Assembly: GCA_016787525.1 (NCBI GenBank)
Contig: JAEUUP010000044.1
Span: forward strand, 96,905 to 160,904
Source: Saprospiraceae bacterium
GTDB taxonomy: Bacteria; Bacteroidota; Bacteroidia; Chitinophagales; Saprospiraceae
Reading direction: 5' to 3'
DNA: 64,000 nucleotides
The notes under the pieces are model-generated. The model saw only the letters and a list, made by a program, of their open reading frames with translations, did no database searches and was not told where the DNA came from. The position numbers and the translations under genes are program-made. Positions 414-63,519 of this stretch are shown in pieces. Each line of letters starts with the position of its first letter. Position 1 is the stretch's first letter.

Positions 414-1025
414 TTATTTCCCACCAAACATACCACCTAACAACTTAGAGCCAACCATGCCCATGATATCATCTATAGCACTACCATCGCCATCTTGGTC
501 GAGGAAGCGTGTTGCCAATTGCATAAGCGGATTGGAGTTTTGGGTTTGAACCGCATTACCTAACAAGCCAGACAATGCACTCGTATTGAGACCACCTTGT
601 TGTTGATTTTGCTGACCTAAAACACCCATCACCATAGGTGCTAATTTTATCATCATATCCATCACACCATTTTGACTTACGCCACTGGTTTGTGAAATCA
701 TTTGCGCTGCATTTTGTTGCTGACCACCTAAGATATGACCAAGAATACCTGCGCCATTGGTAGTACCACGGCTCTGTTGCATAGCACCAGATACTAACCC
801 CATGACATCATTCAGAATCGAACCATCGTGATCGGTGTCTAATGCACTCAAAATACCAGAAGCCCCCCCCTCAGTAGAAGCATTTTTTGCGAGTCCACCG
901 ATAAGTGTAGAAAATATACCTTGTGCTGCGGTTGCAGTTTGCTCTGGTGCAGCACCTGTTTGTTGGCTCAATTGATTGATAACATCTTCAGTTAAATGTC
1001 CTTGCAAAAGACTCATTAAATCCAT
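414..1025 (-). CDS. DUF937 family protein
   Basis: 203 aa, rich in Gln, Gly, Met and Ala, with no signal peptide or membrane segment. The N-terminus (MDLMSLLQGHLTEDVINQLS), the repeated GLV/GLL segments and the closing GGMFGGK resemble the DUF937/YidB-like family, whose role is unknown. Two Asp-rich loops, DTDHDGS (about residue 63) and DQDGDGS (about 178), look like calcium-binding EF-hand or dockerin-type loops; binding is an inference. The gene stands alone with its own terminator. One TACTGAGGGG copy (867-876, reversed) lies inside the frame. Confidence 0.8.
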   Translation of the reverse strand: MDLMSLLQGHLTEDVINQLSQQTGAAPEQTATAAQGIFSTLIGGLAKNASTEGGASGILSALDTDHDGSILNDVMGLVSGAMQQSRGTTNGAGILGHILGGQQQNAAQMISQTSGVSQNGVMDMMIKLAPMVMGVLGQQNQQQGGLNTSALSGLLGNAVQTQNSNPLMQLATRFLDQDGDGSAIDDIMGMVGSKLLGGMFGGK

Positions 1026-1535
1026 ATCCTAAATTAATTTAGATTGTTAAAAGAAAATTCATACACAAATAAACAGCCAAGTTTTGAATTTGCACTATTC
1101 AGACGCATATTTATTTTCAAGTAACAGAATATTTCATCTTAAAAAAACATTTTAAAATCAACATTAATCGGTTGATAATTTACTTATAATGGAACTTATT
1201 GGCGATTAAAATGCTTTATAATTGTGTTTTCAACACTTTTTTGAAAGTTTTGAAAAATTTGCCCTTGACAAATACACTAAGATAACCTTAACTTGCGGCA
1301 TATTTCAGAACAACATGTCACATCCAACTTTCCAATCGTACAGATACCTTTTCAAAAGGTGTAGTGTTCAATAAATTACATGATAAATTGAGTATCAGTC
1401 AGTTACATTTTTCATTTTTTCCGTCTTTATAATGCAACTATACTGAGGGGATAATCGTAAATTATAACCTATCAGTTGTCGTCATATTTTAGTTATACTG
1501 AAAACCGAAACCTTGAACATATATTTTGTTAAACA
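1026..1535. other. Divergent intergenic region, 510 bp
   Basis: AT-rich spacer between two divergent genes that must hold both promoters. No open frame worth calling was found; the best small one, from 1315, is only 19 codons. A TACTGAGGGG copy lies at 1441-1450. An imperfect promoter-like TATATTTTG lies around 1520-1528, one base longer than the Bacteroidota TAnnTTTG form. Confidence 0.6.
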
Positions 1536-2000: not shown

Positions 2001-2033
2001 AACAAAGTCAAAAAACAGGCTCTTTAAGAAACG

Positions 2034-2222: not shown

Positions 2223-2224
2223 AT

Positions 2225-4369
2225 TTATACACCTTGTGCAGGTATAGATATGTAAAACTTAGTTCCCATATTTTCTTCTGAATCAAACCAAATGCGCCCA
2301 TTGTATTTTTCAACGATGTTTTTACAAATAGTCAGACCTATACCCGTTCCTTCAAACTGCCCTTTTTTGTTGAGTTGCTGAAACAAAACGAATACTTTAT
2401 TGCTAAAATCTTTTTTTATACCAATACCATTGTCTGCAATAGTTAGTATTATCTGACCATTATCTTCTTTACCTTCAATGCGTACAATAGGCACTTGGGT
2501 TGTAAATTTGAGCGCATTACCAATTAAATTTTGAAATAACTGTAACAAATGAAGGCGATTCATACGAATACTTGGTAAATTATCGGAATACTCAATTTGG
2601 GCATTCTTAGACTGAATTGCATTGTGTAAGTTGGCTTTTACATCTTCTAAGACTTCCTCAGGGCGAATAACTTCCGCCCCAGGTTGTTGTGATACAACTT
2701 GCGAAAAATCTAACAAATCAGTTAGTAAGCTATACATTCTTTTAACACCTGCATTGACAAACTGCATGTATTCTTTAGCAGAGTCGGGCAAATCTTTACC
2801 ATGCTTCATTTGAATCAAACCAATATACGAGCCAATACTTCTTAATGGTTCTTTCAAGTCGTGAGCTACGACATAGGCAAATTGAGACAAAATCTCATTC
2901 GATTCTTCAAGGCGTTTGTACTGGTTTTGAATCTCTTCATTTTTTAGTTTCAGTGAACGATAATTACGCCCACGCAACTGTATCGTATAACTCAAAAACA
3001 ATACAATCATCAAAAAAACACCAATACTTAATATCAAAAATAAACGATTCTCACGCGCTTTCAATGAATTCAGTTCATTCTCTCTCTTTTCTGAATTGAA
3101 CTTAATTTCCAAACCTGCAACACTACGTGCTTTTTCAATACTAAAAATCGAATCGTTGAGCGCATTCGCTAAATTCAGATATTTTAATGCACTTTCTCTA
3201 TCATTTTTCTCGAAACGAACCAGGAACATCTGATAATTCGCTTTTTGAATAATCTCTTTGTAATCGTATTTATTAGCTAACTCAAGGCCTTTCAAAAATT
3301 CTCGTTCAGCTTCACTTAATCGCTTTTGCTCACGATAAAGCGTTCCAAGTTTGTAATGCAATTCTGCTTGGTCAACATTTATAAATTGAGTCTCGTACTG
3401 TAAGCATTGCTTAAAAAAGTTTTCTGATTGGTCATATTTTTTTTGTTGCTGATACGCTTCTGCAATGAGCATTAGCGTCCGTGCAATATAGGCTTTATAG
3501 TTCATCCCGCGATAAATCGTTAAAGCCTCTTCATATTTTTGAAGTGCTTTGTCATATTGTCCTCGCAAGTCAAGAATTTCACCAAACCTATTGGTCGCAC
3601 TCGCCAACTGAGCCTTGGCTTCCAAATCATCTGGTTTCTGAGCTCTTTGTTGATTGGCTAAACGATAAGCGATATCAATATGTTCTAAGGCTTTATTTAG
3701 TTCTTTAGCCTTCGCATATGTATCAGCAATATCTATATGTGATACTATAAGATCAACAGTTTCTTTAAGATGTGTTGAAATATCAAGCGATTTAAGGTAG
3801 TAAGAAATCGCTTTATCATAAATTCCGACTTCACGATGAAGATGCCCTAAACCATGATAAGCTCCTGCCAACATAAAATAGTCAACAGGTGTGGCTTTTT
3901 CTGCCAATTCCAATACCCGTTCGTAGTAACTATATGAGGCTTTAAAATTGCCAATTTTACGGCTTACAATGGCTAAGTCATTAAAAATCGTTGTTTTAAG
4001 GGTATCATGTAAACCTGTTGCCGTTTTCGCTGCTGACTCATAAGCCTCTATAGCCTTATCTAGTATAGCATTATCTTCATAGATGAAACCAATATCCCGT
4101 TGTACAGAAAAAACTTCTTCAGCAGAGCCCCTTTTACGTGCTTTCTCTAAGGCAACATCGGCATATATAAGTGCAACAGGCATATCACTATATGAATATT
4201 GATTCGCATAACTCAATATTTCTAAAACATTTTTGTTTTGCATTGCCTTATTAATACTATCGCGATTCGATGCAATAGTTGATAAGTCAGCCCCCCTCAG
4301 TAAAAAAGTGCCACATAAAAAAACAAAGCATAAAAACCATCGAAAAGTCCTGTGTAGAGTTCTCTCCAT
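2225..4369 (-). CDS. TPR-containing sensor histidine kinase
   Basis: 714 aa. A signal peptide (residues about 1-27) is followed by a long helical repeat region (about 60-410) with TPR-like units such as GIYDKAISYYLKSLDIS and GQYDKALQKYEEALTIY. Next come a short coiled coil, one membrane helix (about 443-465), a second coiled coil (470-495), a HisKA domain with phospho-acceptor H503 in VAHDLKEPLRSI, and a HATPase domain (NALKF, ADNGIGI, GTGIGLTICK). The TPRs are therefore predicted to be periplasmic and the kinase cytoplasmic. No response regulator is adjacent. Two GG-leader peptide genes lie immediately upstream on the same strand. A TACTGAGGGG copy (4293) lies within the signal-peptide region. 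Confidence 0.92.
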   Translation of the reverse strand: MERTLHRTFRWFLCFVFLCGTFLLRGADLSTIASNRDSINKAMQNKNVLEILSYANQYSYSDMPVALIYADVALEKARKRGSAEEVFSVQRDIGFIYEDNAILDKAIEAYESAAKTATGLHDTLKTTIFNDLAIVSRKIGNFKASYSYYERVLELAEKATPVDYFMLAGAYHGLGHLHREVGIYDKAISYYLKSLDISTHLKETVDLIVSHIDIADTYAKAKELNKALEHIDIAYRLANQQRAQKPDDLEAKAQLASATNRFGEILDLRGQYDKALQKYEEALTIYRGMNYKAYIARTLMLIAEAYQQQKKYDQSENFFKQCLQYETQFINVDQAELHYKLGTLYREQKRLSEAEREFLKGLELANKYDYKEIIQKANYQMFLVRFEKNDRESALKYLNLANALNDSIFSIEKARSVAGLEIKFNSEKRENELNSLKARENRLFLILSIGVFLMIVLFLSYTIQLRGRNYRSLKLKNEEIQNQYKRLEESNEILSQFAYVVAHDLKEPLRSIGSYIGLIQMKHGKDLPDSAKEYMQFVNAGVKRMYSLLTDLLDFSQVVSQQPGAEVIRPEEVLEDVKANLHNAIQSKNAQIEYSDNLPSIRMNRLHLLQLFQNLIGNALKFTTQVPIVRIEGKEDNGQIILTIADNGIGIKKDFSNKVFVLFQQLNKKGQFEGTGIGLTICKNIVEKYNGRIWFDSEENMGTKFYISIPAQGV

Positions 4370-4684: not shown

Positions 4685-4770
4685 TATACTAAACATAGTT
4701 TTGGACAGGCTCTAAGTAGCTCTGCGTGTTTTTAAATATTATGTCAGAGTTTTAAGATTTTACTGAGGGG

Positions 4771-5330: not shown

Positions 5331-6029
5331 CTATTTCGTCATTTTATTACTTTTCACAGACCCATTGCCAACTCTATTTATTCTTGTCGCTATACCTAAA
5401 CCCGTATTTTCTACGTCACCATTGCCATACAAGTCCACTTCATAGGTCTCGGAGGCATTGAAACGCACATTACCATTGCCTTTCAAATTAACTTTAGCCT
5501 TGGCAGCTGTCAAATCCACAGCATCCACGTCGCCATTACCCTTTAAGTCAATATCCAAAACATCAACTTTCGACCCCCTCAGTAAAATATCCCCATTACC
5601 AAAGTTTTCAGCTCTAAAATAACGACCATTCAAACCCACAATTTGTGCCTCACCATTCGATTTTTGCGTATAAACTGACATCTCAGGCATTGTCACTTTT
5701 ATCACTATATTGTTATTTTTCAACCACGTATTAGAACCCAATTTTTTCTTATCGAGTTTGAAGGTCAATTTATGCTCTTTATTATCTCCTTGAATCAGTA
5801 AAAAATCTGACAAATTATCATCTATTTCTATGTCCAAAGACTTAGCTTGACCAATACGAATCAACACTTTAGCCGAAAAGTCCACCTCAATTTTATCAAA
5901 ATCAATAACATCAGGCTTCACATTCACAATATTTCCAGAGCCTTCTATGCTTCTCCACTGCTCTTGAGCAAGCACCGAAACACTATTCAATAAACCTATG
6001 GCAACAACAAAAACGATTAGATTTTTCAT
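5331..6029 (-). CDS. Secreted DUF2807 (head GIN domain) protein
   Basis: 232 aa with a signal peptide ending SVLAQ. The rest is a beta-helix-like series of short strands with repeated Gly-Asn-Gly turns (FGNGDILLRG, LKGNGDVDAVDL, LKGNGNVRF, LYGNGDVENTG, VGNGSVKSN), the hallmark of the DUF2807/'putative auto-transporter adhesin head GIN' family. Members are exported and of unknown function. A terminator follows. A reversed TACTGAGGGG copy (5575) lies in the frame. Confidence 0.85.
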   Translation of the reverse strand: MKNLIVFVVAIGLLNSVSVLAQEQWRSIEGSGNIVNVKPDVIDFDKIEVDFSAKVLIRIGQAKSLDIEIDDNLSDFLLIQGDNKEHKLTFKLDKKKLGSNTWLKNNNIVIKVTMPEMSVYTQKSNGEAQIVGLNGRYFRAENFGNGDILLRGSKVDVLDIDLKGNGDVDAVDLTAAKAKVNLKGNGNVRFNASETYEVDLYGNGDVENTGLGIATRINRVGNGSVKSNKMTK

Positions 6030-6972: not shown

Positions 6973-7351
6973 TTTCTTTTGTCTTAATTTTTTTATTGAA
7001 ATAATGATTGTGCGATTTTTAAAAATCATAACACAAAGGTGAGTCAAACGCTCATCGCAATCGCTCCGAATAATGATTTGAACCGCTTCAAATCATTATT
7101 TGACACCTGCATTGATTTGAAGCCATCTAGACTAAAACTCTAATTATATGATAATCAACCACTTAGTACAAAATAAAATTTTAACTTTATAGGAAAAACT
7201 TTCATCACACACTTTGTTTTCATAAAAAAAGGCGTGACAGACACCCCTCAGTATATTGTACAAAAGAGAGGTATTCCAAAAAAAAATGGTCAGGAAGGAC
7301 AAATAAAGCCTGTAATTGAAGAATTAGTTAGGCACTTTTTTTGAAAAATAT

Positions 7352-8388: not shown

Positions 8389-8470
8389 GATACACCTACC
8401 CCTCAGTATAATATCAATTTTTAACGCTTTTTAACAAGGTTTTTCAGTTAAAAATATTGAAATTTGCCCC

Positions 8471-8541: not shown

Positions 8542-9537
8542 ATGACAAGTTACGTTGATATTGAAGCACTCAATCAAGAAATTTATATCGCAAGTTCATT
8601 TGTTGAACGCCTTAATGCTGAAACAGGTAAAGTTATCGTGGGTCAAAACCACATGATCGAACGCCTAATGATTGGTCTTTTGACACGCGGACACGTCCTT
8701 TTGGAGGGCATGCCTGGTCTTGCTAAAACATTGGCTATCAAAACTTTAGCCAGTGCCATCAATGCCAAATTCAGCCGTATTCAGTTTACCCCTGATTTGC
8801 TCCCAGCCGACATCATAGGTACGATGATTTACAATCCAGCTAAAGCGGATTTTACAGTGCGAAAAGGGCCTGTTTTTGCCAATTTTGTTTTGGCAGATGA
8901 GATAAACCGTGCGCCTGCCAAAGTGCAATCGGCTCTTTTGGAAGCCATGCAAGAACGCCAAGTGACCATTGGCGACCACACATATCCACTTTCTGAGCCG
9001 TTTTTAGTTTTGGCGACTCAAAACCCAATTGAGCAAGAAGGCACATACCCGTTGCCCGAAGCACAAGTTGACCGTTTTATGTTAAAAGTCAAAATTGACT
9101 ACCCGAACAAGCAAGATGAGCGCGAAATCATTCGCCGCAATATGCTTGGAGACACCCCCTCAGTATCGCACGTTGTCAACGTAGAAGATATTCTAAAAGC
9201 CCGCCAAGTGGTCGGCAAAGTGTATATGGATGAAAAAATCGAGCAATACATTCTTGACATCGTTTTCGCAACTCGCAACCCACAGCAATATGGTTTAGCT
9301 AATTTGCAAAACCTCATTCAATACGGCGGCAGTCCGCGTGCCAGCATTTCGTTGGCAACAGCTGCCAAAGCCTTAGCGTTTTTGAAACGTCGTGGTTATG
9401 TCATTCCAGAAGACATTCGCAACGTTTGTCCAGATGTTTTGCGCCACCGCATTGGCTTGACTTACGAAGCAGAAGCAGAAAATGTGACTTCGGAAGACAT
9501 CATTAGTCAGATTTTGAACCGTGTGGAAGTACCGTAG
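8542..9537 (+). CDS. MoxR-family AAA+ ATPase
   Basis: 331 aa. Walker A is GMPGLAKT (residues 56-63) and Walker B is VLADEINRAP, with sensor 1 in LATQNP and the MoxR-typical GTYPLPEAQVDRF. MoxR ATPases act as chaperones in assembling or activating partner proteins, usually with DUF58 and VWA proteins. Those partners follow at 10543, 11459 and 12599, so this is the head of a MoxR/Bat module. A reversed TACTGAGGGG copy encodes TPSV at 9156. Confidence 0.95.
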   Translation: MTSYVDIEALNQEIYIASSFVERLNAETGKVIVGQNHMIERLMIGLLTRGHVLLEGMPGLAKTLAIKTLASAINAKFSRIQFTPDLLPADIIGTMIYNPAKADFTVRKGPVFANFVLADEINRAPAKVQSALLEAMQERQVTIGDHTYPLSEPFLVLATQNPIEQEGTYPLPEAQVDRFMLKVKIDYPNKQDEREIIRRNMLGDTPSVSHVVNVEDILKARQVVGKVYMDEKIEQYILDIVFATRNPQQYGLANLQNLIQYGGSPRASISLATAAKALAFLKRRGYVIPEDIRNVCPDVLRHRIGLTYEAEAENVTSEDIISQILNRVEVP

Positions 9538-11458: not shown

Positions 11459-12499
11459 ATGAAAATTATTAAAAAATTGATAGTCAATAATTTATATAGA
11501 AAAACGAATCGGATAAGCATTTTGAACTTGCGTCAAATTGCTCTGTTTTTATTTTTCATTTTTTTCAAAACTGTTGTTTTTGCACAGCACATCAACACCG
11601 AACCGAAAGCCTATGCGACACTCGATACCAACATGATGCTTATAGGCGACAAAGGCACATTGCATTTGTCAGTTGAGTTGAATGGAGGCGAGCGTGTCGT
11701 TCAAGCTACACCCGATATGCCTTTGGATACAGCCCATTTTGAGATACCAAACGCTGGGAAATGGGGTAATCCAAGTCGTGCCTTAAAATGGGAACGCGAC
11801 ATTGCTTTCGTCGCTTGGGATTCGGGCTTGTACCGCATCGAGCCTGTTGTGTTTACGATTCAGATGGCAAATGGTGAAACCCGTCAAGCACAAACACCAC
11901 CCGTTTTGTTGACTGTCAATAATCCGATTGGCATTGATGCGATGGCCGCTCCTGTGGGTATCAAAGATATTGAGCGTGAAGAATTGACAGCAGAAGATAT
12001 TTTGCCTTATGTTTTAGGTGTGGTTTTGATAGGCGGAATTGCCTTTTTAGCTTGGTTTTTCTATAAAAAATGGAAAAATCGAGACCTCAAGCCCGTTGTT
12101 CAAACAGTTGTACAACCGCCACACATCATTGCTGAACGTCTTTTACAGGAGTTAAAAGCCAAACAGTTGTGGCAAAAAGGCAATGTCAAAGAATATTATT
12201 CTGAATTGAGCCATATACTGAGGGGGTATTTTGAAGACCAATTTACGATGCCTGCACTTGAAAGCACCACCAATGAATTAATAACAATTTTGGAAAAAAG
12301 GGATTTTGAAGAGGCTATTATTACCCAAATGCGCCATTTACTCAAAACAGCCGACTTAGTAAAATTCGCAAAAGTTGAACCTGCAACCGACGTGCATGAT
12401 GGCTTTTGGCACGATGCGGCGGTGATTGTGGAAGCGACTAAGCCTAAACCTGTGGTGGAAGGTGTTGATAATCAAAATATTGTGAAAGAAAATGCTTGA
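11459..12499 (+). CDS. BatD-like membrane protein
   Basis: 346 aa. N-terminal signal anchor ending VVFAQ, a periplasmic beta-rich domain (about 45-170, as in BatD/BamD-type Bat proteins), one membrane helix (about 183-203, LPYVLGVVLIGGIAFLAWFF), and a cytoplasmic helical domain (about 215-320) containing KEYYSELSHILRGYFED. This layout is usual for the gene between DUF58 and BatA in Bacteroidota; direct homology to BatD is an inference. A forward motif copy encodes ILRG at 12216. Confidence 0.75.
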   Translation: MKIIKKLIVNNLYRKTNRISILNLRQIALFLFFIFFKTVVFAQHINTEPKAYATLDTNMMLIGDKGTLHLSVELNGGERVVQATPDMPLDTAHFEIPNAGKWGNPSRALKWERDIAFVAWDSGLYRIEPVVFTIQMANGETRQAQTPPVLLTVNNPIGIDAMAAPVGIKDIEREELTAEDILPYVLGVVLIGGIAFLAWFFYKKWKNRDLKPVVQTVVQPPHIIAERLLQELKAKQLWQKGNVKEYYSELSHILRGYFEDQFTMPALESTTNELITILEKRDFEEAIITQMRHLLKTADLVKFAKVEPATDVHDGFWHDAAVIVEATKPKPVVEGVDNQNIVKENA

Positions 12500-12598
12500 T
12501 GAATATGAAGTAGCACGATATTGCAAACCAAACTTACTGAGGGGTAAAAGCAAAAGTTTCAAAAGCTCTTTATCTTAAAATCATGCGTCTTTGTACTT

Positions 12599-13597: not shown

Positions 13598-14343
13598 TGC
13601 GCTATTTCATCGAATTGGCTTACAATGGAACTCGACTGTGCGGTTGGCAACGTCAACCCAATGCCCCCTCAGTACAACAGACAATTGAAGATGTATTTTC
13701 AATGATGTTGCGGCAACCCGTTGAAATAACAGGCTGTGGGCGGACTGACACAGGCGTTCACGCACAACAATATTTTGCTCATTTTGATTTCGACGATAAG
13801 TTCCCTAAAAACTTTCTTGACCGAGCCGATAAATTGGTCGGCAAAGACATCGCTTTACGGCAAATTATGGCTGTCAACAACGAAGCTCATGCGCGTTTTG
13901 ATGCCACGTCAAGGAGTTATGAATACCATATTTCTTTTCAAAAAAGTCCTTTTTTTTCAGAAACAGCGTGGTTTTTTACACAAAAAGACCAATTAGATTT
14001 CGAGAAAATGCAAAAAACAGCCGATTTACTGAGGGGGTACTCAGAGTTTGCACCATTTTGCAAAACACACTCTGATGCCCAAACAATGCGTTGCGCAGTG
14101 ACTCGAAGTGAGTGGATTTTTTCAGAAAACGGAGCTGTGTTTCATATCTCCGCCAATCGTTTTTTGCGGGGAATGGTGCGCTTGATTGTGGGCGCATGTG
14201 TGAATGTCGGTTTGGGACAAATTACTATTGACGATGTGAAAAAAGCCCTTGACAACCAAGAACCTTTGAAAAAAAGCTATTCAGTACCACCGACGGGTTT
14301 GTTTTTGACGGATATTCGTTATCCGTTTTTCAATTTGAAATAA
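13597..14343 (+). CDS. truA: tRNA pseudouridine(38-40) synthase TruA
   Basis: 248 aa. It converts U38-U40 of the tRNA anticodon arm to pseudouridine. The catalytic Asp is D51 in GCGRTDTGVHA; other family blocks are LAYNGTRLCGWQRQ at the start, FDATSRSYEY, and ANRFLRGMVRLIVG near the end. It carries two motif copies in frame (APSV at 13665, LLRG at 14027) without disturbing conserved parts. Confidence 0.96.
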   Translation: MRYFIELAYNGTRLCGWQRQPNAPSVQQTIEDVFSMMLRQPVEITGCGRTDTGVHAQQYFAHFDFDDKFPKNFLDRADKLVGKDIALRQIMAVNNEAHARFDATSRSYEYHISFQKSPFFSETAWFFTQKDQLDFEKMQKTADLLRGYSEFAPFCKTHSDAQTMRCAVTRSEWIFSENGAVFHISANRFLRGMVRLIVGACVNVGLGQITIDDVKKALDNQEPLKKSYSVPPTGLFLTDIRYPFFNLK

Positions 14344-16457: not shown

Positions 16458-16544
16458 CGCCGCATTTGACCTTATGCTAAACTAAATACTCAAAAATGGT
16501 GTTTGTTTACTGAGGGGTTTAAAAATAAAAATTAGAGATAAGTT

Positions 16545-27591: not shown

Positions 27592-27619
27592 AGCCTCCTC
27601 TACTGAGGGGGCTTTTTTA
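27592..27619 (+). terminator. Terminator built on the 10-mer motif
   Basis: AGCCTCCTC pairs with GAGGGGGCT (one G-T pair) around the loop TACT, followed by six T residues. The loop and right arm are a TACTGAGGGG copy (27601-27610). It ends the dioxygenase gene and, at the same time, covers the stop codon of the convergent gene. Confidence 0.85.
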
Positions 27620-46589: not shown

Positions 46590-46776
46590 GTCTTTAACAA
46601 TCGGGCAGAAGAAGCAATTTATCTCTTTTATATATTAACAAACCCGTTTCATTTATCATTTTCTAACGAGAATTTCAGATTTCATGGAGGCTCTGCCTTC
46701 TGGAATCCAGCCAGTTTATTGTGTCAACTCAACTCTTTTTACTCAACTCTTTATATCAACTAAAAACAAGTTTCAG

Positions 46777-49878: not shown

Positions 49879-49907
49879 GGCCCCCTCAGTATTTTCATTG
49901 ATTTGAA

Positions 49908-50903: not shown

Positions 50904-52400
50904 ATGCAAAAATGTGATGTAATCGTTGTGGGCAGTGGCAATGCCGCTTTGTGTGCAGGCATTTCAGCACTCGAACATGGTGCGCGAGTTCTCATCGTCG
51001 AGAAAGCCACTTTTGAAGAAATGGGCGGCAACAGCCGCTACACAGCAGGCGCGATGCGTTTCGCTTACGACTCCAACGAAGACCTGCTGCCGCTTTTGAA
51101 AGATCCCAACGATGAACGGATAGCGATAACAGACTTTGGCAGTTATCCTAAAGAAAAATTCCTCGCCGACCTCAAACACTTCAACGAAGGCGAACCCATT
51201 ACGGAACTGCAACAGTTTCTGGTGGACGAAAGCCTGCCTGCTTTACAATGGTTGGCCACACACCACATCAAATTCGCGCCGATTTACAGCCGTCAGTCTT
51301 TTATGAAGGACGGCAAATACATCTTTTGGGGCGGTTTGACCCTTGAGGCAGAAGGTGAAGGCAATGGTTTGGTGATGGACGAGCTGAAACGGTTTCAGGA
51401 CTTAGGTGGTACAATATTGTACGACTGTGCCGCAACAGAAATCGTGACAGACAAGGGTAAAATCGTCGGTCTGACATGCCACTACCAAGGTCAAGACGCA
51501 TTTTTCGAGACCCCCTCAGTCATTTTAGGCTGTGGCGGCTTTGAAGCCAACAAAGAATTACGTATCCGATACTTGGGCGATAAATGGGGCGATGCGAAAG
51601 TACGTGGCACACGCCACAATCTTGGTCATGGACTGACGATGGCGACACAACTCGGGGCGGCATTGAATGGTTATTTCGGTGGTTGTCATGCGACACCGAT
51701 GGACAGATACATGCCCGAATATGGTAACTTAAACATTCCGCACATCGAGCGCAAACATTATCGCAAAATCAGCTACCTATTCGGGGTCATGCTCAATGCC
51801 AACGGCGAGCGATTCGTAGATGAGGGCGCAGATTTCCGCAACTACACCTATGCCCAGTTCGGTAAAGCCGTCTTGGAGCAACCCCTCAGTATCGCTTGGC
51901 AAATCTTCGATGCCAAAGTCTGGCACTTGCTCTATGGGGAATATAAAACCTCGGATGCCAGCTTTGTGGAAGCCAACACTTTAGAAGAGTTGGTGGCACA
52001 ACTCACCGATGTCAACCCACAACAAGCCCTCGAAACCCTCAGAAACTACAATGCGGCTGTCCGTCAAGACAAACCATTCGACCCAACCATCAAAGATGGT
52101 CGCTGTACTGAGGGGTTGACGCTGAACAAAACGAATTGGGCGAACGTGTTGGACACACCTCCTTTCCGAGCCTATCCTGTCACGGGCGGTATCACGTTCA
52201 CCTACGGCGGTTTGAAGGTCAATCAGAGAGGAGAAGTGCTGAATACTGAGGGGGTTCCCATTGCAGGTCTCTTTGCTTGTGGCGAAATGGTCGGAGGTGT
52301 TTTCTTTCACGGCTATCCAGGCGGCTCGGGTCTGACATCAGGGACTATTTTCGGGCGATATGCGGGCCAGTCGGCAGCTCAATTTTGTTCTTTGATATGA
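50904..52400 (+). CDS. tcuA: FAD-dependent tricarballylate dehydrogenase-like protein (TcuA)
   Basis: 498 aa, a soluble member of the fumarate reductase/succinate dehydrogenase flavoprotein group. FAD motif CDVIVVGSGNAALCAGISAL at the N-terminus, substrate/FAD contact EEMGGNSRYTAGAMRF, and the C-terminal GGITFTYGGLKVNQRGEVL followed by GLFACGEMVGGVFFHGYPGG. TcuA oxidises tricarballylate to cis-aconitate. The assignment to this subfamily is likely; the substrate is inferred, supported by the PrpF-like gene nearby. Motif copies at 51882 (PLSI), 52106 and 52244 (TEG). Confidence 0.82.
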   Translation: MQKCDVIVVGSGNAALCAGISALEHGARVLIVEKATFEEMGGNSRYTAGAMRFAYDSNEDLLPLLKDPNDERIAITDFGSYPKEKFLADLKHFNEGEPITELQQFLVDESLPALQWLATHHIKFAPIYSRQSFMKDGKYIFWGGLTLEAEGEGNGLVMDELKRFQDLGGTILYDCAATEIVTDKGKIVGLTCHYQGQDAFFETPSVILGCGGFEANKELRIRYLGDKWGDAKVRGTRHNLGHGLTMATQLGAALNGYFGGCHATPMDRYMPEYGNLNIPHIERKHYRKISYLFGVMLNANGERFVDEGADFRNYTYAQFGKAVLEQPLSIAWQIFDAKVWHLLYGEYKTSDASFVEANTLEELVAQLTDVNPQQALETLRNYNAAVRQDKPFDPTIKDGRCTEGLTLNKTNWANVLDTPPFRAYPVTGGITFTYGGLKVNQRGEVLNTEGVPIAGLFACGEMVGGVFFHGYPGGSGLTSGTIFGRYAGQSAAQFCSLI

Positions 52401-53123: not shown

Positions 53124-54341
53124 ATGGATAAATCAATTTTAATTAAAAGACAAAGACAGAGTGGTAAGACCTTAATGTTTGCTGTTGTTATCTCAACCAT
53201 TTTTATAACAATAGGTTGTAAAACACCAACAATCACCCAAACAGCCGTCCATACTGAGGGGGTCAGAAAAACTGTCTTCGACGATGGCGTAGCTTGCACC
53301 TATATGCGCGGAGGAACATCGAAAGGTCCATTCTTCGACATGCGAGATTTGCCACAAGACGTGAATGAACGCAATAAATTCTTGCTAAAAGTCATGGGTT
53401 CGCCCGATGCAAAGCAAATTGATGGCTTAGGCGGCACTGTCACCGTCACGAGTAAGGTCGTGATGGCGCAACCCTCAAAGCGCAAGGGCATAGATGTGGA
53501 TTATCTGTTCGCACAAGTGGACATTGAGAACCCTGTGGTGGACACGACACCACCTTGTGGCAATATGATGGCAGGCGTGGGACCTTTTGCCATCGAAAAA
53601 GGCTGGGTGAAGGCGACAAGTCCTGAGACGCGGGTGATGGTGTACAATATCAACACCAACTCAGTCATCGAGGAAATCGTCCAAACGCCCAATGGCAAAG
53701 TCGAATACAACGGTACGATGAAAATTGATGGCGTACCCGGCACAGCTGCCCCTGTGGTGATGAATCTCTTTGACCAAGTGGGCGGTAAGACGGGCAAATT
53801 GCTGCCAACGGGCAAAATCAAAGAACAAATACAGGGCATAGATGTCACCTTATTGGATGCAGGCTCGACGATGGTGCTGATGAAAGCCAGTGATTTGGGC
53901 ATGGACGGTACTGAGGGGGAGGATTTTTTCAAAAAGAATAAAGATTTGATGACAAAAATCGAGAACATTCGCCTCGAAGCAGGTCAACGCATGGGTTTGG
54001 GCGATGTCCGCAACAGTGTTCTCCCCAAAGTGGGCATCCTCTCGAAACCCCGCAAGACAGGTGGCAATATTACGTCGCGTTATTTGACACCACACACGCT
54101 GCATCCGTCTCATGCGGTCACAGGAGCGATTTGTATCGGCACAGCCTTAAAGATAAAAGGCTCAATAGCCGCAGAAGTCGGCGTGACGAATGGACAAGAC
54201 AAAGAGATGGTCGTGATAGAACATCCGTCGGGCGTGATTGAAGTCAATATCGAGATAGAGAAAAAAGGTGAAACGATAAATGTCAAAAAGGTGGGTACAG
54301 TACGCACCGTGCGCAAGATTATGGAAGGCAAAGTATTTTAG
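53124..54341 (+). CDS. PrpF/4-oxalomesaconate tautomerase-like isomerase with lipoprotein signal
   Basis: 405 aa. The catalytic part has all PrpF-family marks: YMRGGTSKGPFFDMRDLP, DGLGGTVTVTSKVVMAQPS, TTPPCGNMMAGVGPFAIEKG and HPSHAVTGAICIGTALKIKG. These proteins isomerise aconitate-type tricarboxylates (2-methylaconitate, 4-oxalomesaconate). Unusually, a hydrophobic N-terminus (about 17-31) ends in a lipobox-like ITIGC with Cys32, predicting export as a lipoprotein, whereas known family members are cytoplasmic. The motif copy 53252 (HTEGV) joins signal and catalytic domain. Confidence 0.85.
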   Translation: MDKSILIKRQRQSGKTLMFAVVISTIFITIGCKTPTITQTAVHTEGVRKTVFDDGVACTYMRGGTSKGPFFDMRDLPQDVNERNKFLLKVMGSPDAKQIDGLGGTVTVTSKVVMAQPSKRKGIDVDYLFAQVDIENPVVDTTPPCGNMMAGVGPFAIEKGWVKATSPETRVMVYNINTNSVIEEIVQTPNGKVEYNGTMKIDGVPGTAAPVVMNLFDQVGGKTGKLLPTGKIKEQIQGIDVTLLDAGSTMVLMKASDLGMDGTEGEDFFKKNKDLMTKIENIRLEAGQRMGLGDVRNSVLPKVGILSKPRKTGGNITSRYLTPHTLHPSHAVTGAICIGTALKIKGSIAAEVGVTNGQDKEMVVIEHPSGVIEVNIEIEKKGETINVKKVGTVRTVRKIMEGKVF

Positions 54342-55341: not shown

Positions 55342-55417
55342 CCCTACTGAGGGGGTCCTCTTCTGTTTTTAATATATTAATGCAACCAGCGAAACCTTCG
55401 CTATTAAACAAAACAAA

Positions 55418-56792: not shown

Positions 56793-56834
56793 TACTGAGG
56801 GGGTGCTGTCAAAACGCAAACCTACCCCTCAGTA
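56793..56834. terminator. Inverted pair of 10-mer motifs between convergent genes
   Basis: A forward copy (56793-56802) and a reversed copy (56825-56834) face each other and, with one flanking pair on each side, form a hairpin stem GATACTGAGGGG / CCCCTCAGTATC with a 22-nt loop. The convergent MFS and pnuC genes end on either side; the right arm ends exactly where the pnuC stop codon begins. It most likely terminates both. Confidence 0.85.
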
Positions 56835-57497: not shown

Positions 57498-59210
57498 TTA
57501 TTGGTTTATATCGAATTCCGTCTCCACTTCCCAATCCGCTCTCAAACCTTCGATGGTTTTCCAAAAGATGCGTTCGGGTTGCGTTTTTTTGTCATAATTA
57601 CCTGTGTCCCAACGGCGATTCCTGTTGGTATCTTCCACCACTTTCAGTTTGTATTCGTCGGGTTGCATCATTTCGATGCGTTTCTCAAGAGCCGTTTTAT
57701 TATCCACAAAGAACTCGGCTTCCACAAGCCCCGAACCACTCAAAACCTGCACGACATAGTGCTTCAAACTGTCCAAACCTTTGACTTTGATGATGATTGT
57801 GCCTAATTCTGCTTTTTTCTGCACTTGGATTTTCGTCGTCACGGTATCATTTTTCAGACCAAAAATATCCGTCAAGGCATCGGGTTGTACAGTCAGATTG
57901 TAAGGCACACCTTCCACCCAGTTGGCTTCAAAAATCAGCCTGCGTTGACTCGATGAATCGCGACGAATACTGAGGGGGGTGCTTTTTTTAGCCGAATCTA
58001 AAAGAATAATTTTTTGATTGTCAATGTTTTCTATCGGATTGGCAAAGGTCAGACTGAATGCTTTGGCAGGATTCTTTGCAAAACTGGACTGCATATTGAG
58101 AGGTACAAGCGTTTTGTTCTTTTTGAAAAAGTCAACACGCCCTCTCGGGCGAATGCGAATCGTATCGGTTTGCGAGGTGTCGTTTTTGACATAGACATTC
58201 CAAGCCGCATCGCCCGAAGGCAAATCGTAGTAGAGCAAAATCGTGTCTTTGCTGATTTCAGTCGCTATCTTTTGATTCACATTGTCGAAAGTCACTTTTG
58301 ACCCCGTTGGGTCTTGATTGGCAATGAGTTTTATGACACCATATTTGTCTGTTTCTTTGGTCAACAGTTGCCATTTTTTAGGCGGGTCGAACAGGCGGAT
58401 ATTTATCAATCCCGAGTTGGCTTGCGCGACCCTTTTCAAACTGTCGGCTTTGCTTAGAGAGTCGCGCTTGGTTATTTTAGCCGTATCCGAACGCAGTTTT
58501 GAAGCTGTGAATTCTGCTGTGACATTAAAGAAATCGTCGGGAAAACCAATTTTTTCTACATCTTGATTGAACAAATAATTCAAATCCTTATCCAACAAAG
58601 CAAAAACCTTAAACTTACCTTCGCGCACATTTTCGATGATGGCTTCACCGTTCTTGTCGGTTTTTCCAAAATAAAAAGGTTTTATCTTCCTGACCACTGA
58701 ATCTGCCAAATTGTCGTACAACATCAAAACGGCCCCCTCAGTAGGAACACCCGTCACAGCATCAATCACCCGTCCACGCACCGTCAGAGAATCAATGATA
58801 GCCCCTGTTGAAAACACAAAGCGCAGATCTTTAGCAGGATTGCCTTCACTCAAATCTTTCACAGCGTTGCCAAAATTGATGGTATAAGTCGCGTTCTCAC
58901 GCAAGACTTCGTTTTTTCCGAATTCAAAAACGATTTTTTTATTGACCTGCTCTACTTTAGGCTGCTCGTTCAAAGGCGGCGACACTACGACTTGATTGAA
59001 AGCATCTTCCAACTTAACCCATTCATCGAAGGTCAATTCGATGCGTTGTTTTTTAAAATTCGTTTGAAAATTAGGCGTTGATTTGCTTTCCACGATTTTG
59101 GGCGGCGTTGTGTCTTTATTACCACCTGTGGGCGCGACGATATTGGCACAACTTTGCAAAAGGGCAATCGAAACAAGGAAGAAGACACTGTTTTTTATAT
59201 TCAATCTCAT
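57498..59210 (-). CDS. Ig-like (Big_5) domain lipoprotein
   Basis: 570 aa. Lipobox at Cys21 (LLQSC). The mature start NIVAPTGGNKDTTPPKIVES leads into a SbsA-type Ig-like domain (about 30-130, IELTFDEWVKLEDAFNQVVV), then a carboxypeptidase-regulatory-like repeat (about 142-220, VRGRVIDAVTGVPTEGAVLM), and further beta domains. The end (NRRWDTGNYDKKTQPERIFW) is well conserved in Bacteroidota. Probably an outer-membrane-anchored structural protein. Gene symbol not assignable. Motif copies at 57968 and 58734. Confidence 0.85.
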   Translation of the reverse strand: MRLNIKNSVFFLVSIALLQSCANIVAPTGGNKDTTPPKIVESKSTPNFQTNFKKQRIELTFDEWVKLEDAFNQVVVSPPLNEQPKVEQVNKKIVFEFGKNEVLRENATYTINFGNAVKDLSEGNPAKDLRFVFSTGAIIDSLTVRGRVIDAVTGVPTEGAVLMLYDNLADSVVRKIKPFYFGKTDKNGEAIIENVREGKFKVFALLDKDLNYLFNQDVEKIGFPDDFFNVTAEFTASKLRSDTAKITKRDSLSKADSLKRVAQANSGLINIRLFDPPKKWQLLTKETDKYGVIKLIANQDPTGSKVTFDNVNQKIATEISKDTILLYYDLPSGDAAWNVYVKNDTSQTDTIRIRPRGRVDFFKKNKTLVPLNMQSSFAKNPAKAFSLTFANPIENIDNQKIILLDSAKKSTPLSIRRDSSSQRRLIFEANWVEGVPYNLTVQPDALTDIFGLKNDTVTTKIQVQKKAELGTIIIKVKGLDSLKHYVVQVLSGSGLVEAEFFVDNKTALEKRIEMMQPDEYKLKVVEDTNRNRRWDTGNYDKKTQPERIFWKTIEGLRADWEVETEFDINQ

Positions 59211-59370: not shown

Positions 59371-60585
59371 TTAACTTCCTTTCACTTTCGCCCAGTCAAA
59401 TTTTTTCAAAAAATCAGCTGCCGCTTTTGCACCACGGACAAACAAATCAATCTTTTCGGCAGTGGTCAAATCAAAGTCGAGCCAATGATAAGTACCCGTA
59501 TCCACATAACCGATACTGTTTTTGTAGGCGACATGGCTTTGAATGAATTCAAAATCGCGGAGTTGCATCGCAGCATCGAAGCTCACACCCAAGATGTCGA
59601 GCGCAGAGTCGAGGGTATTGTAGCGGTTGCGGTCGAAACCTAATTTGATGCCGAAGGTCGGTCGTGCAGGCGTTTGTGGATCATTGACAAAAGCGTCAAT
59701 CGGGAAATTGGACAAAGTGCCACCATCCACAAAATATACTGAGGGGGGGATCTCACCTGTATAGCCTGCGGTTTTTATCCATTTTTCTTTATAATTTGTT
59801 GTTTTTTCTATTTTTGATATATCTACTTTGACGGGTTCAAAAAAGACAGGCACGCTCATTGAGCAACGTATGAATTTGGCGGCAGGTTCTTGCGCTGTGT
59901 TTTTAAAATACAAATCGCCCATAGCTGGAAATACGACCTTTGTTTCGGTAGTCAAATCGGCAGCGACAACCGCCATTTTAGCTTTGATATTTTGCTTTTT
60001 CAGCGATTCAGGCAAGTCGTTCATATTGTCCAACACTTGTTGTACGGTCGCATGGCCAATATTCGTATCAAGCCAATTGTAAAAATCATTACCCGGATTT
60101 AAGCCCATTTTGTTTTTGATATCGTCAATATTTCGCAACGTGGACAACGTGCCACCGACCGTTTGCACAGCTTTTCTATCCGAAAAAAGGGCTTTCACAA
60201 GCCTTTGAGCATCTTTGCCGCCATCCACAAATTCGTTAAAATCTTTGTTGGCAATCAATTCGACAACGATCGGGCTTTTGATGCTATTGGGTTTGCCCAA
60301 AGCACCGAGAAACAGTGTATTGATACTACCCGCCGACGTACCAGCCAAACTCAAAAACCGTATGCCCATGATTTCGAGAATGTAGGTATAGCCCACAAGT
60401 GCGATACCCAATACACCACCGCCCTCTTGCACCAAGTTGACATATTGCAGACCTTTGTCGTCTCGGACGTCTGAAAAGTCGAAGGATTTCTTGTTTTTTT
60501 CGAAATAAAGTAGCAAATCGTCTATAATTGACTGAGTTGCTGCTGTAAATTCACCACCTTTGATGGTCATCTGATTATTTTCCAT
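59371..60585 (-). CDS. Patatin-like phospholipase
   Basis: 404 aa without a signal peptide. Oxyanion motif GGGVLG (about 55-60), nucleophile Ser84 in GTSAG, and the catalytic Asp in VDGGTLSNFPIDAF (about residue 280) form the Ser-Asp dyad of patatins. It is expected to hydrolyse acyl esters of lipids. Between them lies a large variable region. The motif copy at 59737 encodes PPSVYF just before the catalytic DGG. Confidence 0.9.
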   Translation of the reverse strand: MENNQMTIKGGEFTAATQSIIDDLLLYFEKNKKSFDFSDVRDDKGLQYVNLVQEGGGVLGIALVGYTYILEIMGIRFLSLAGTSAGSINTLFLGALGKPNSIKSPIVVELIANKDFNEFVDGGKDAQRLVKALFSDRKAVQTVGGTLSTLRNIDDIKNKMGLNPGNDFYNWLDTNIGHATVQQVLDNMNDLPESLKKQNIKAKMAVVAADLTTETKVVFPAMGDLYFKNTAQEPAAKFIRCSMSVPVFFEPVKVDISKIEKTTNYKEKWIKTAGYTGEIPPSVYFVDGGTLSNFPIDAFVNDPQTPARPTFGIKLGFDRNRYNTLDSALDILGVSFDAAMQLRDFEFIQSHVAYKNSIGYVDTGTYHWLDFDLTTAEKIDLFVRGAKAAADFLKKFDWAKVKGS

Positions 60586-60885
60586 GATTGGCTTTTTGTA
60601 ATGTATCCTAATTTTTATTCAAAAGATGAAGCGAAATTAGTTGTGGTCTGTCCTAAAGGATAAATATTTTCAATGAATAGTCAGAAAATTTCAACCAACG
60701 GAGATTGTGACGTTTTGTCATATATTTTCGCATTTTTACTGACAGTTTTTCAACACAAGCCATAAAAGAATAAAAAAAGCCGTCATTTCTTCACTAAAAG
60801 CGGATTGGTTTCTAATTTGATGCTTCAAATTTGTGTTTTCAAAAAAACAAGAATCCATCAACAATAATCAATATTCAATAAAATA
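60586..60885. other. Divergent spacer between patatin and clpB genes
   Basis: 300 bp that must hold both promoters. No exact TAnnTTTG, no CIRCE-type heat-shock repeat and no credible small frame (the longest, from 60673, is 30 codons) were seen. Confidence 0.55.
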
Positions 60886-63519
60886 ATGACTTACGACAAT
60901 TTCACTATCAAAGCACAAGAAAGCATACTTAAAGCACAGCAATTAGCAGGCGAAAACAACCAGCAGATGGTAGATACTTCGCATTTACTGAGGGGTATCC
61001 TAACGGAAGATGAGAGTGTTGCTGGTGTGTTGCTTAAAAAAATTGGTGTGACTGTTTCAGCCTTAGAATCTGAAATAGACAAACTGATTGCTGCCATTCC
61101 ACGCATTCAAGGCGGTGTCGAAAAACAATATTTGTCGAGCGAAGCCAACAAAGTGCTGAGTAAAGCCAAATCGTTGGCCAAAGAATTTGGCGATGAATAC
61201 ATACCCATCGAACTCGTTTTGTTAGCCATCCTACAAGGCAGCGACAAAACGGCAAGAACGCTGCGTGAGTTGGGCGCAAATGAAGAAAACCTTAAAAAAG
61301 CGATTACAGACATGAGAAAAGGTAGAAAAGTAACAGATTCGGGCGCAGAAAACCAGTATAATGCGCTCGGCAAATATGCCATTAACCTCAACGAACGAGC
61401 CGAGTCAGGCAAACTCGACCCAATCGTTGGGCGCGACGAAGAAATCAGACGTGTCTTACACATTTTGAGCCGTCGCCAAAAAAACAATCCGATTGTGATT
61501 GGCGAAGCAGGTGTGGGCAAAACTGCCATTGTGGAAGGTATAGCACACCGTATCGTGCGTGGCGACGTGCCAGAAAGTTTGAAAACTAAAAAAATCATGA
61601 GCCTCGACATGGCGGCTCTCATTGCTGGTGCAAAATACAAAGGCGAATTTGAGGAACGCCTGAAAGCTGTTGTCAAAGAAGTAGAGGAATCGGAAGGCGA
61701 AATTATTTTGTTCATTGACGAAATCCACACGCTGATTGGTGCAGGAGGCGGCAATGGTGCTATGGATGCTGCTAACATCTTAAAACCTGCTTTGTCGCGT
61801 GGTGAATTGCGGACGATTGGCGCGACCACTTTGGACGAGTATCAAAAGTATTTTGAAAAAGACAAAGCCTTAGTGCGCCGCTTCCAACCCGTCATCGTGG
61901 ATGAGCCGAGCGTCGAAGATACCATCTCGATACTGAGGGGGGTGCAAGAACGCTATGAAAACTACCACAAAATCAAGATTTTAGACGAGGCTTTGGTATC
62001 TGCGGCTGAGTTGAGCCATCGCTACATTGCAGATCGTCATCTGCCCGACAAGGCGATTGACTTGATTGATGAAGCGGCTGCCAAATTGCGTTTAGAGCTT
62101 GATAGTGTTCCAGAAGAAATTGACGAGTTGGACAGAAAATTACGTCAATTGGAAATAGAACGCGAAGCCATCAAACGCGAAAAAGATACCAAAAAATTGG
62201 AGATTCTGAACCGTCAAATTGCTGATTTGCAAGAAAAACTCAACGGCGTACGCGGCAAATGGGACGAAGAAAGAGCGATTGTAGAAGCCATTCAGACTGC
62301 CAAACGCAAAATTGAGGAGTTGGAACTCAAAGCCCAACGAGCTGAGCGTGAATCCAATTTTGAGCTAGTTGCCAAAATTCGATACGGTGAAATCAAAGAA
62401 GAAGAAAAAATACTGAGGGGTGCAGAAGAACAGCTGAAAGAACTCGCCCCCGAAAACCGATTGACCAAAGAGGAAGTCACCGCAGACGATATTGCCGAAG
62501 TCGTCGCACGTTGGACGGGCATACCCGTTGCCAAAATGCTGCAATCCGAAAAAGATAAATTGCTCAAATTGGAAGACGAAATCGGCGGACGTGTCATTGG
62601 TCAGCGTGAGGCAGTAGAGGTGGTGTCTGATGCTATTCGTCGGTCAAGAGCTGGTTTGCAAGATGAAAAACGTCCCATCGGTTCGTTCATTTTTTTGGGG
62701 CCAACAGGTGTCGGCAAAACGGAATTGGCAAAAGCCTTAGCTGAAGTCATATTTGACGACGAATCAGCGATGACCCGTATTGATATGTCCGAATATCAAG
62801 AGAAACATACAGTTAGCCGTTTGGTAGGTGCGCCTCCAGGCTATGTAGGCTATGATGAAGGTGGTCAATTGACCGAAGCAGTCCGTCGTCGTCCTTATCA
62901 GATCATTTTGTTGGACGAAATTGAAAAAGCGCATCCCGATACATTCAATATCTTGCTCCAAGTGCTGGACGATGGTCGTTTGACGGACAATAAAGGACGA
63001 GTAGCCAATTTCAAAAATACGCTCATCATCATGACCTCAAATATGGGTTCAGACAAAATTCTGGACAATTTCGATGGTTTAGAAGACGTGACAGAAGCAC
63101 AAAGAGCCGACATCATCGAAGAAACCAAAAAAGAAGTTTTGGATATTCTGAAAGACAACCTACGTCCCGAGTTTCTGAATCGGATAGACGAAACTGTCGT
63201 TTTCCATCCCCTCAGTAAGTCGGATATTAAAGCCATTTTGGTATTGATGATAAAAGGCTTGAACGAGATGTTGAAAAAACAAGAATTGTTTGTCTATCCA
63301 ACAGATGCCGCTTTCGATTTCTTAGCTAAAGAAGGTTACGATCCACAATTTGGCGCAAGACCTCTACGTCGTACTCTACAAAAAGAATTGATAAACGAGC
63401 TATCGAAAGAAATTTTAATGGGCAAATTTTCAAAAGGCGATAAAATATTGGTCAACGCCATAGGCGATAAACTCACGTTTGAAGTTAAAAAAGGCGAAAA
63501 AGAAGCCGAAAATATATAA
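60886..63519 (+). CDS. clpB: ATP-dependent chaperone ClpB
   Basis: 877 aa, normal for ClpB. N-domain (1-145), first AAA+ domain with Walker A GEAGVGKT (206-213), a long coiled-coil middle domain (about 405-525), second AAA+ domain with GPTGVGKT (about residue 605), and the usual GYVGYDEGGQLTEAVRRRPY pore-loop region. The middle domain separates it from ClpA/ClpC. It disaggregates proteins together with DnaK. Motif copies: 60986 (LLRG), 61931 (ILRGV), 62411 (ILRGA) and 63208 (PLSK). Confidence 0.97.
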   Translation: MTYDNFTIKAQESILKAQQLAGENNQQMVDTSHLLRGILTEDESVAGVLLKKIGVTVSALESEIDKLIAAIPRIQGGVEKQYLSSEANKVLSKAKSLAKEFGDEYIPIELVLLAILQGSDKTARTLRELGANEENLKKAITDMRKGRKVTDSGAENQYNALGKYAINLNERAESGKLDPIVGRDEEIRRVLHILSRRQKNNPIVIGEAGVGKTAIVEGIAHRIVRGDVPESLKTKKIMSLDMAALIAGAKYKGEFEERLKAVVKEVEESEGEIILFIDEIHTLIGAGGGNGAMDAANILKPALSRGELRTIGATTLDEYQKYFEKDKALVRRFQPVIVDEPSVEDTISILRGVQERYENYHKIKILDEALVSAAELSHRYIADRHLPDKAIDLIDEAAAKLRLELDSVPEEIDELDRKLRQLEIEREAIKREKDTKKLEILNRQIADLQEKLNGVRGKWDEERAIVEAIQTAKRKIEELELKAQRAERESNFELVAKIRYGEIKEEEKILRGAEEQLKELAPENRLTKEEVTADDIAEVVARWTGIPVAKMLQSEKDKLLKLEDEIGGRVIGQREAVEVVSDAIRRSRAGLQDEKRPIGSFIFLGPTGVGKTELAKALAEVIFDDESAMTRIDMSEYQEKHTVSRLVGAPPGYVGYDEGGQLTEAVRRRPYQIILLDEIEKAHPDTFNILLQVLDDGRLTDNKGRVANFKNTLIIMTSNMGSDKILDNFDGLEDVTEAQRADIIEETKKEVLDILKDNLRPEFLNRIDETVVFHPLSKSDIKAILVLMIKGLNEMLKKQELFVYPTDAAFDFLAKEGYDPQFGARPLRRTLQKELINELSKEILMGKFSKGDKILVNAIGDKLTFEVKKGEKEAENI

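Follow-up and report, generated by a model that had tools for sequence, protein, structure and literature searches.

The window analysed here, a 64,000-nt stretch of a Saprospiraceae bacterium (assembly GCA_016787525.1, contig JAEUUP010000044.1, positions 96,905 to 160,904), is densely sown with the word TACTGAGGGG. This over-representation is real and genome-wide, and TACTGAGGGG(G/T) is probably a DNA-uptake signal that owes its spread to molecular drive and has a putative receptor other than a type IV pilus. The density and even spacing of the copies, their origin in place, their presence in integrase-bearing phages and a ComF/ComEC/HhH/DprA gene set all fit such a signal.

The window contains 63 exact copies (34 forward, 29 reverse), the first starting at position 867 and the last at 63208-63217, and the base on their 3' side is G in 40, T in 21 and A in two cases, i.e. 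G/T in 61/63. With at most one mismatch, 71 matches are found against 1.22 +/- 1.04 expected from 100 dinucleotide shuffles. The host assembly (7.27 Mb, 169 contigs, 98% complete; contigs C25 and C115 are all N and hence outside the word counts) holds 6,920 exact copies, or 0.95/kb, split 3,457/3,463 between the strands, compared with three copies of the reversed word used as control. The extended form TACTGAGGGGK occurs 6,552 times and its reverse twice. Allowing one mismatch raises the genome count to 7,931 versus 141 for the reversed control, so that exact copies outnumber single-mismatch copies about 7:1. An initial annotation of the window had reported the 63 copies, their 34/29 split, G/T as the next base in 61 of 63, about one copy per kb and a non-palindromic word unlike HIP1, and had proposed a full-genome count as a check; the recount returned the same figures, the word differs from its own reverse complement, and the roughly 6,900 genomic copies are far from random.

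The form of the word was resolved further in 1.08 Mb of host stretches (15% of the genome, picked non-randomly by contig number) that hold 1,013 copies. Here, 134/146 one-mismatch forms differ at T1 or G7-G10 and only 12/146 within ACTGA, which is the almost invariant part of the word. Among 665 copies, the preceding base is A in 59% and the following base G in 58% or T in 36%, and base conservation is not strong beyond about 12 bp, apart from a phasing of AT content.

Each of the 395 other sampled genomes of the host's order contains at most 14 copies. The congener, the only other genome of the genus compared, has three exact copies, and its count at one mismatch or fewer (49) lies below that of its reversed control (116). 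A collection of 84,980 species was additionally scanned for two copies 462-492 bp apart, a search that would yield up to about 170 places for an equally dense genome (nine pairs in 377 kb of host stretches, the richest spacing bin), may omit records of the host genome or near-identical ones, and would let sparser or variant motifs escape. It returned two places, which are chance or local repeats; their whole genomes hold 3 and 10 copies. The congener (G384, stretches L023-L042) carries a long GC-rich dispersed repeat of its own, unrelated to TACTGAGGGG, whose 10-mers CCGCGTTCCA, GGAACGCGGA and CGCGGATGAC are its most frequent ones (44-48 copies in 371 kb).

Alignment to congener DNA shows that the copies arose by base replacement in place and not by insertion, as 53/55 of them show no indel in the core. 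Identity at these 55 sites is 42.5% in the core versus 64.2% in the flanks, so that on average five to six of the ten core bases differ. An earlier alignment run with other gap costs gave 16/21 ungapped cores (gaps in 5/21) and identities of 45% versus 68%. The initial annotation had held, from the window alone, that the word seems selected in place rather than inserted; its origin in place is thereby borne out. Such in-place conversion is the expectation of molecular drive through biased uptake and recombination (PMC1939737).

Around the word, AT content oscillates every ~10.6 bp and is phase-locked from about -130 to +205 bp. AT peaks lie near -11, -22 and -32 upstream and at +16, +26 and +37 downstream, and the downstream comb is shifted against the upstream one by about 5.8 bp, or half a turn. 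Measured as Fourier amplitude, the phasing exceeds every one of 1,000 codon-frame-preserving shifts in all five segments between -129 and +205, narrowly so in the two outermost ones (0.0069 vs a shift maximum of 0.0061, and 0.0062 vs 0.0060), and equals noise from -210 to -130. It is also present in 794 isolated copies and is reproduced by random halves, with the exception of +140..+205, where one half reaches 0.0035. The carriers are AA and TT, against GC and GG/CC. Upstream amplitudes hardly differ between intergenic copies and the five coding classes (0.030-0.040), and downstream amplitudes are 0.020-0.028 in intergenic and reverse copies and 0.016 and 0.008 in the forward classes (noise 0.004 and 0.006). 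Since intergenic copies are phased too, the alpha-helix periodicity of proteins is ruled out as the cause. Generic genome periodicity explains at most part of the far phasing: motif-free positions of the same genome, matched for equally phased near flanks, lack it downstream (0.0013 vs 0.0171 for the word at 44..75 and 0.0006 vs 0.0121 at 76..139) and keep about one third to less than half of it upstream (0.0048 vs 0.0151 at -65..-34 and 0.0030 vs 0.0069 at -129..-66; noise 0.0007). Thus, most of the phasing belongs to the word. DNA with such flanks is predicted to be bent or wrapped. The long phasing is new, had not been seen in the initial annotation, and exceeds what is known from DNA uptake sequences (DUS) and uptake signal sequences (USS).

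The copies are spaced more evenly than random, with a coefficient of variation of 0.745 versus 0.999 (minimum 0.890 in 1,000 random placements). Both short and long intervals are depleted (17 vs 89.4 expected below 100 bp, 8 vs 22.1 above 4 kb), only 10 neighbouring pairs lie within 50 bp (45.7 expected), and the deficit below ~300 bp (120 vs 244.5) indicates that copies repel each other. Chromosomal stretches of 3-6 kb without the word exist. Two integrase regions (L267:4358-8267 and L269:9720-13359) lie in word-free gaps of 3.6-3.9 kb between word-bearing flanks, and one of the two integrase matches has an internal stop. A 4,340-aa open frame of higher GC content (0.46; L070:5718-18740), perhaps a recent or repetitive gene, has few copies and gaps of 5.2 and 5.9 kb.

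Strand bias between contigs is absent (contig-level test, chi2 23.3, 21 degrees of freedom, p 0.33). In the 1.08 Mb, 762/1,013 copies lie inside crude open reading frame (ORF) calls, where they occupy five frame/orientation classes, and the sixth, which would read TGA, has zero copies within these ORFs. The density is 1.40/kb outside versus 0.86/kb inside ORFs, with a mild preference among intergenic gaps for tail-to-tail (1.81/kb) over tandem (1.57) and head-to-head (1.17) arrangements. No bias towards gene ends was found (decile counts 61-85); such a bias is known for the Pasteurellaceae signals (PMC2346458). Two of the initial claims on arrangement, the lack of orientation bias and the use of five frames with the sixth absent, thus extend beyond the window. 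The strong replication-strand polarity that the initial annotation had named as refuting its proposal is not seen at the contig level. A third claim, the use of the word in terminators, is not confirmed as a general feature: only 4/344 neighbouring pairs are at most 80 bp apart, and with close pairs depleted and tail-to-tail density only mildly raised, a terminator element was rejected as the explanation. One inverted pair in the window (56793-56834) does look terminator-like, with 22 bp between the arms, a T run nearby and convergent genes on either side, but close pairs are rare genome-wide.

The word is also found in phages. Four completed scans of virus contigs (IMG/VR), the last of which gave none, identified five contigs dense in the word, with 28 copies in 36.8 kb, 14 in 42.0 kb, 3 in 4.5 kb, 30 in 42.3 kb and 12 in 11.9 kb (available part). 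The inner stretches annotated in three of them (those with 28, 14 and 30 copies) encode an integrase in 3/3 and a tape-measure protein in 2/3 cases, and one inner stretch is poor in the word (4 in 19 kb). The near flanks of 52 usable phage sites are phased as in the host (r 0.73 upstream, 0.43 downstream). From the presence of the word, we infer that these phages have this lineage as host. In Pasteurellaceae, prophages gather USS during residence in a competent host, whereas large, likely lytic phages do not (PMC6776037), and phage HP1 has 17 USS cores in 32.4 kb. Together with this parallel, the phage copies fit an uptake signal gathered during residence.

Genes for the inner steps of transformation are present in the host. 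A gene row at L115:4773-12789 comprises a comF-like phosphoribosyltransferase, comEC, a four-fold HhH protein (ComEA-like), a 3D/MltA-like protein and an outer-membrane barrel of the TonB-linked type; DprA is encoded as well, and the frames of the comF-comEC-HhH cluster and of dprA are open. The barrel (L115:4773-7319, with OMP_b-brl_3, CarboxypepD_reg and Plug domains) lies directly downstream of comF-comEC-HhH-3D, which makes it a candidate for the outer-membrane step. The congener keeps comEC, HhH and 3D, and cinA is next in place of the barrel. Riemerella, another member of the Bacteroidota, is described as transforming without pilus homologues and as needing ComEC, ComF, DprA, RecA, an HhH protein, an outer-membrane protein, a predicted fimbrial DUF5689 protein and a DUF1343 protein (PMC8459023). 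Judging by its gene content, the host encodes the inner half of a Riemerella-like route. DUF5689 proteins were also considered as a surface receptor of the Riemerella type and rejected: both host members (L145:7414-10428 and L146:244-2490) carry tails of the type IX secretion system together with PLD or sub-cut-off Exo_endo_phos domains, and are thus possibly secreted nucleases. The congener has the PLD type. Such tails, together with the TonB-linked barrels and the ComEC matches, point to Bacteroidota as the phylum of the host.

As an uptake signal, the word would be bound on double-stranded DNA by a surface receptor, so that self DNA is pulled in, and recombination after entry would spread it by molecular drive, giving rise to the 6,920 copies. 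The phased flanks may bend the DNA so that the core is presented at a loop or kink and threaded through an outer-membrane pore. With no pilus ATPase above cut-off, the receptor is probably not a type IV pilin and would instead belong to a pilus-free, Riemerella-like route of outer-membrane barrel, periplasmic HhH protein, ComEC, ComF and DprA. Sites across the genome and its phages have been converted, in one lineage, towards one exact word with shaped flanks, and to our knowledge biased uptake with recombination would be the only process to have achieved this at such a density.

Several observations weigh against this interpretation. No PilB/PilT/GspE-type ATPase (type IV pilus or type II secretion system) lies above cut-off in the 98%-complete genome, a search that did not include ComP and other pilus parts; the four host matches to PF00437 are all below cut-off (E 7e-5 to 2e-4), and one lies in clpB. 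Relatives in which the word is not enriched encode ComEC, HhH and DprA as well, so that these genes alone neither explain nor imply it. Known uptake signals are common to families as dialects; here, no DUS-like 10-mer was found in 371 kb of the congener or, simple repeats aside, in 18/20 sampled family genomes (5-20 kb each; the stretches of the remaining two were too short, at 3.5 kb and 1 kb all N). At the 55 homologous sites, the word-less congener has phasing of 0.015 upstream and 0.016 downstream (noise 0.010) in a similar phase, compared with 0.035 and 0.019 in the host, so that part of the flank phasing may predate the word. Karlin, as cited in PMC1939737, had once read even spacing as pointing to a function in replication, repair or compaction. 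Finally, the phasing is two-sided over ~330 bp, unlike the two tracts that flank the USS on one side, and a 10.75-bp periodicity of the flanks is equally a hallmark of gyrase sites (PMC6379681); a two-sided phasing of this length, beyond the known DUS and USS, leaves room for a DNA-wrapping function. The initial annotation had suggested an uptake signal and named competence machinery and relatives as places to look. Its suggestion gains from the density, even spacing, in-place origin, phages and com genes, the machinery being present as ComF, ComEC, a ComEA-like HhH protein and DprA, and loses from the lack of a pilus ATPase above cut-off, the weak link to terminators and the relatives, since among the genomes compared only that of the host is dense and neither the word nor a visible dialect appears in the congener or the sampled relatives.

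The main rival is a chromosome-organising or topology site, at which gyrase or a nucleoid protein, positioned by the word, would wrap ~300 bp of phased flanks once per kb. The closest published analogue found in length and period is the motif of E. coli gyrase sites, which are 130 bp long with 10.75-bp periodic GC flanks (PMC6379681). Phasing at ~10.6 bp on both sides, through AA/TT steps and over about 330 bp, is consistent with wrapping, as are the repulsion of copies over about the length of the phased zone and the same near-flank phasing in phage copies. However, the gyrase motif is degenerate and ACTGA near-invariant, the GyrA-type subunits (873 and 908 aa) are ordinary beside those of relatives (860-919 aa), with no fused domain on gyrase or Topo IV visible by length, and small integrase regions without the word are tolerated. 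Moreover, thousands of in-place conversions, compared with three copies in the congener, would be hard to reach by weak per-site selection without drive. On balance, wrapping as the primary function seems unlikely, if worth taking seriously. We rate as rather improbable a Chi-like or self-marking signal that acts after entry, sparing DNA from a nuclease or starting recombination. Protection after entry would drive accumulation as uptake does, and the word is G-rich, asymmetric and found in phage DNA too. Yet Chi is skewed to the replicating strand, whereas the word has no strand polarity at the contig level, and the chromosome retains stretches of 3-6 kb without it. Chi goes with helicase-nucleases that are inherited vertically, but neither the congener nor the other 394 genomes sampled in the order (no more than 14 copies each) are enriched, and we know of no role of helical phasing of double-stranded flanks in Chi recognition.

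Two further explanations were weighed. In the first, DNA passes from cell to cell in a gene-transfer agent, phage or vesicle instead of being taken up free, and the word marks it for packaging or sorting. This would account for the word and its phased near flanks in integrase-bearing phage contigs, but Pasteurellaceae prophages gain USS simply by residence in a competent host (PMC6776037), and about one site per kb would be denser than packaging needs, which makes this very improbable. A dispersed mobile repeat, inserted thousands of times, would match the high copy number and little else: the 53/55 cores without indel (16/21 at the other gap costs) rule out insertion or a repeat family, no strong base conservation extends beyond about 12 bp, where only AT phasing is seen, and five coding frames are used with genes left open. 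We give this explanation next to no credence.

Neisseriaceae and Pasteurellaceae, in which uptake signals are known (PMC7811141), import DNA by means of type IV pili. Among the matches listed in the open-licence literature, no established uptake signal in Bacteroidota was found, and those containing TACTGAGGGG or its reverse complement as text are unrelated by title. The word may represent a third, independently evolved system of self-DNA recognition, the first of Bacteroidota and the first to work without type IV pili, in which a 10-bp address within a ~330-bp phased, nucleosome-like bending envelope, evolved de novo after the split from the genus-mate, would be read in both sequence and shape by a new class of outer-membrane receptor. 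This fuller proposal is a real possibility that we would stop short of calling probable. If true, self-recognition of DNA evolves independently of the pilus, and the word could serve as bait, providing a handle on the outer-membrane receptor of Bacteroidota transformation. Since the word is not enriched in the congener, the two genomes form a natural experiment on the origin of thousands of sites, and the long phased envelope allows a test of whether DNA shape, over hundreds of bp, belongs to the signal.

Table 1. Exact matches to TACTGAGGGG in the window; "congener-aligned" marks those aligned to congener DNA in the earlier run of 21 cores.
Feature	Position	Strand	Remark
motif copy	867..876	-	
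motif copy	1441..1450	+	
motif copy	4293..4302	-	
motif copy	4761..4770	+	
motif copy	5575..5584	-	
motif copy	7244..7253	-	
motif copy	8399..8408	-	
motif copy	9156..9165	-	congener-aligned
motif copy	12216..12225	+	
motif copy	12535..12544	+	
motif copy in truA-like gene 13597-14343	13665..13674	-	
motif copy in truA-like gene 13597-14343	14027..14036	+	
motif copy	14637..14646	+	
motif copy in ABC-transporter ATPase gene 15225-15878	15271..15280	+	
motif copy	16508..16517	+	
motif copy	17576..17585	+	
motif copy	17734..17743	-	
motif copy	18705..18714	-	
motif copy	19233..19242	-	
motif copy	20172..20181	+	
motif copy	20386..20395	+	
motif copy	20718..20727	-	
motif copy	21983..21992	+	
motif copy	22650..22659	-	
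motif copy	23380..23389	-	
motif copy	26370..26379	-	
motif copy	27601..27610	+	
motif copy	27840..27849	-	
motif copy	28127..28136	-	
motif copy	28248..28257	-	
motif copy	29963..29972	+	
motif copy	30308..30317	+	
motif copy	31612..31621	+	
motif copy	33264..33273	+	
motif copy	34272..34281	-	
motif copy	34889..34898	-	
motif copy	35277..35286	+	
motif copy	35909..35918	+	
motif copy	37396..37405	+	
motif copy	40008..40017	-	
motif copy	41122..41131	+	
motif copy	41604..41613	+	congener-aligned
motif copy	42232..42241	-	congener-aligned
motif copy	43425..43434	+	congener-aligned
motif copy	44356..44365	-	congener-aligned
motif copy	45286..45295	-	
motif copy in TonB-dependent receptor gene 46684-49830	47155..47164	-	
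motif copy	49882..49891	-	
motif copy	51882..51891	-	congener-aligned
motif copy	52106..52115	+	congener-aligned
motif copy	52244..52253	+	congener-aligned
motif copy	53252..53261	+	
motif copy	53909..53918	+	congener-aligned
motif copy	55345..55354	+	
motif copy, left arm of inverted pair between convergent genes	56793..56802	+	
motif copy, right arm of inverted pair (partner 56793..56802)	56825..56834	-	
motif copy	57968..57977	+	
motif copy	58734..58743	-	congener-aligned
motif copy	59737..59746	+	
motif copy in clpB gene 60886-63519	60986..60995	+	
motif copy in clpB gene 60886-63519	61931..61940	+	congener-aligned
motif copy in clpB gene 60886-63519	62411..62420	+	congener-aligned
motif copy in clpB gene 60886-63519	63208..63217	-	congener-aligned

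Among known systems, HIP1 of cyanobacteria is likewise a very abundant short word found throughout the genome, but its sequence, GCGATCGC, is palindromic and linked to orphan methyltransferases (PMC4390886), whereas the word is non-palindromic. The gyrase cleavage motif and the strong gyrase site of Mu share flanks with a ~10.7-bp periodic base composition; the former is degenerate and 130 bp long (PMC6379681), in contrast to an exact 10-mer in about 330 bp. With the pilus-free transformation of Riemerella, the host shares ComEC, a ComF-like protein, an HhH protein, DprA and the lack of a pilus ATPase above cut-off. PMC7965970 reports no established uptake sequence for Riemerella; R. columbina prefers its own DNA, but its k-mer counts gave mostly A-rich words of uncertain role.

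The USS of Pasteurellaceae resembles the word in its 9-10 bp core, AT-rich tracts about one helical turn apart, frequency of ~1/kb on both strands and inside genes, and accumulation in prophages (PMC7811141, PMC6776037). In H. influenzae, uptake is helped by the AT tracts, for which a rigid, slightly bent structure is predicted (PMC7811141). As a yardstick, 248 sites, deduplicated and drawn from 76 loci (virus contigs and phage HP1) with a high density of the USS core, have AT tracts at +13 and +24, on one side, with an amplitude of 0.062 at 12..43; elsewhere, it is 0.003 at -65..-3 (noise 0.004) and 0.005 at 44..75 (noise 0.006), with a small isolated value of 0.011 at 76..139. The word likewise has helically spaced AT tracts beside its core, but instead of being confined to two on the 3' side they are two-sided, from -129 to +205, and several times longer. 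In addition, the USS rides on type IV pilus machinery, whereas the word's genome has no pilus ATPase above cut-off. The DUS of Neisseriaceae is a 10-12-mer with thousands of copies, a CTG core and a UGA stop in one frame (PMC3630211), comparable to the near-invariant ACTGA, but its receptor ComP is a type IV minor pilin and its dialects run through the family, in contrast to a host with no pilus ATPase above cut-off and a close relative, the congener, with neither the same motif nor a visible dialect of it. As no pilus ATPase lies above cut-off, no family dialect is visible and the tracts are not one-sided, the word is not filed under DUS or USS. It is, like them, a dense non-palindromic word that is alike on both strands, has arisen by point changes in place and has accumulated in integrase-bearing phages. 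In its working, the word would resemble both.

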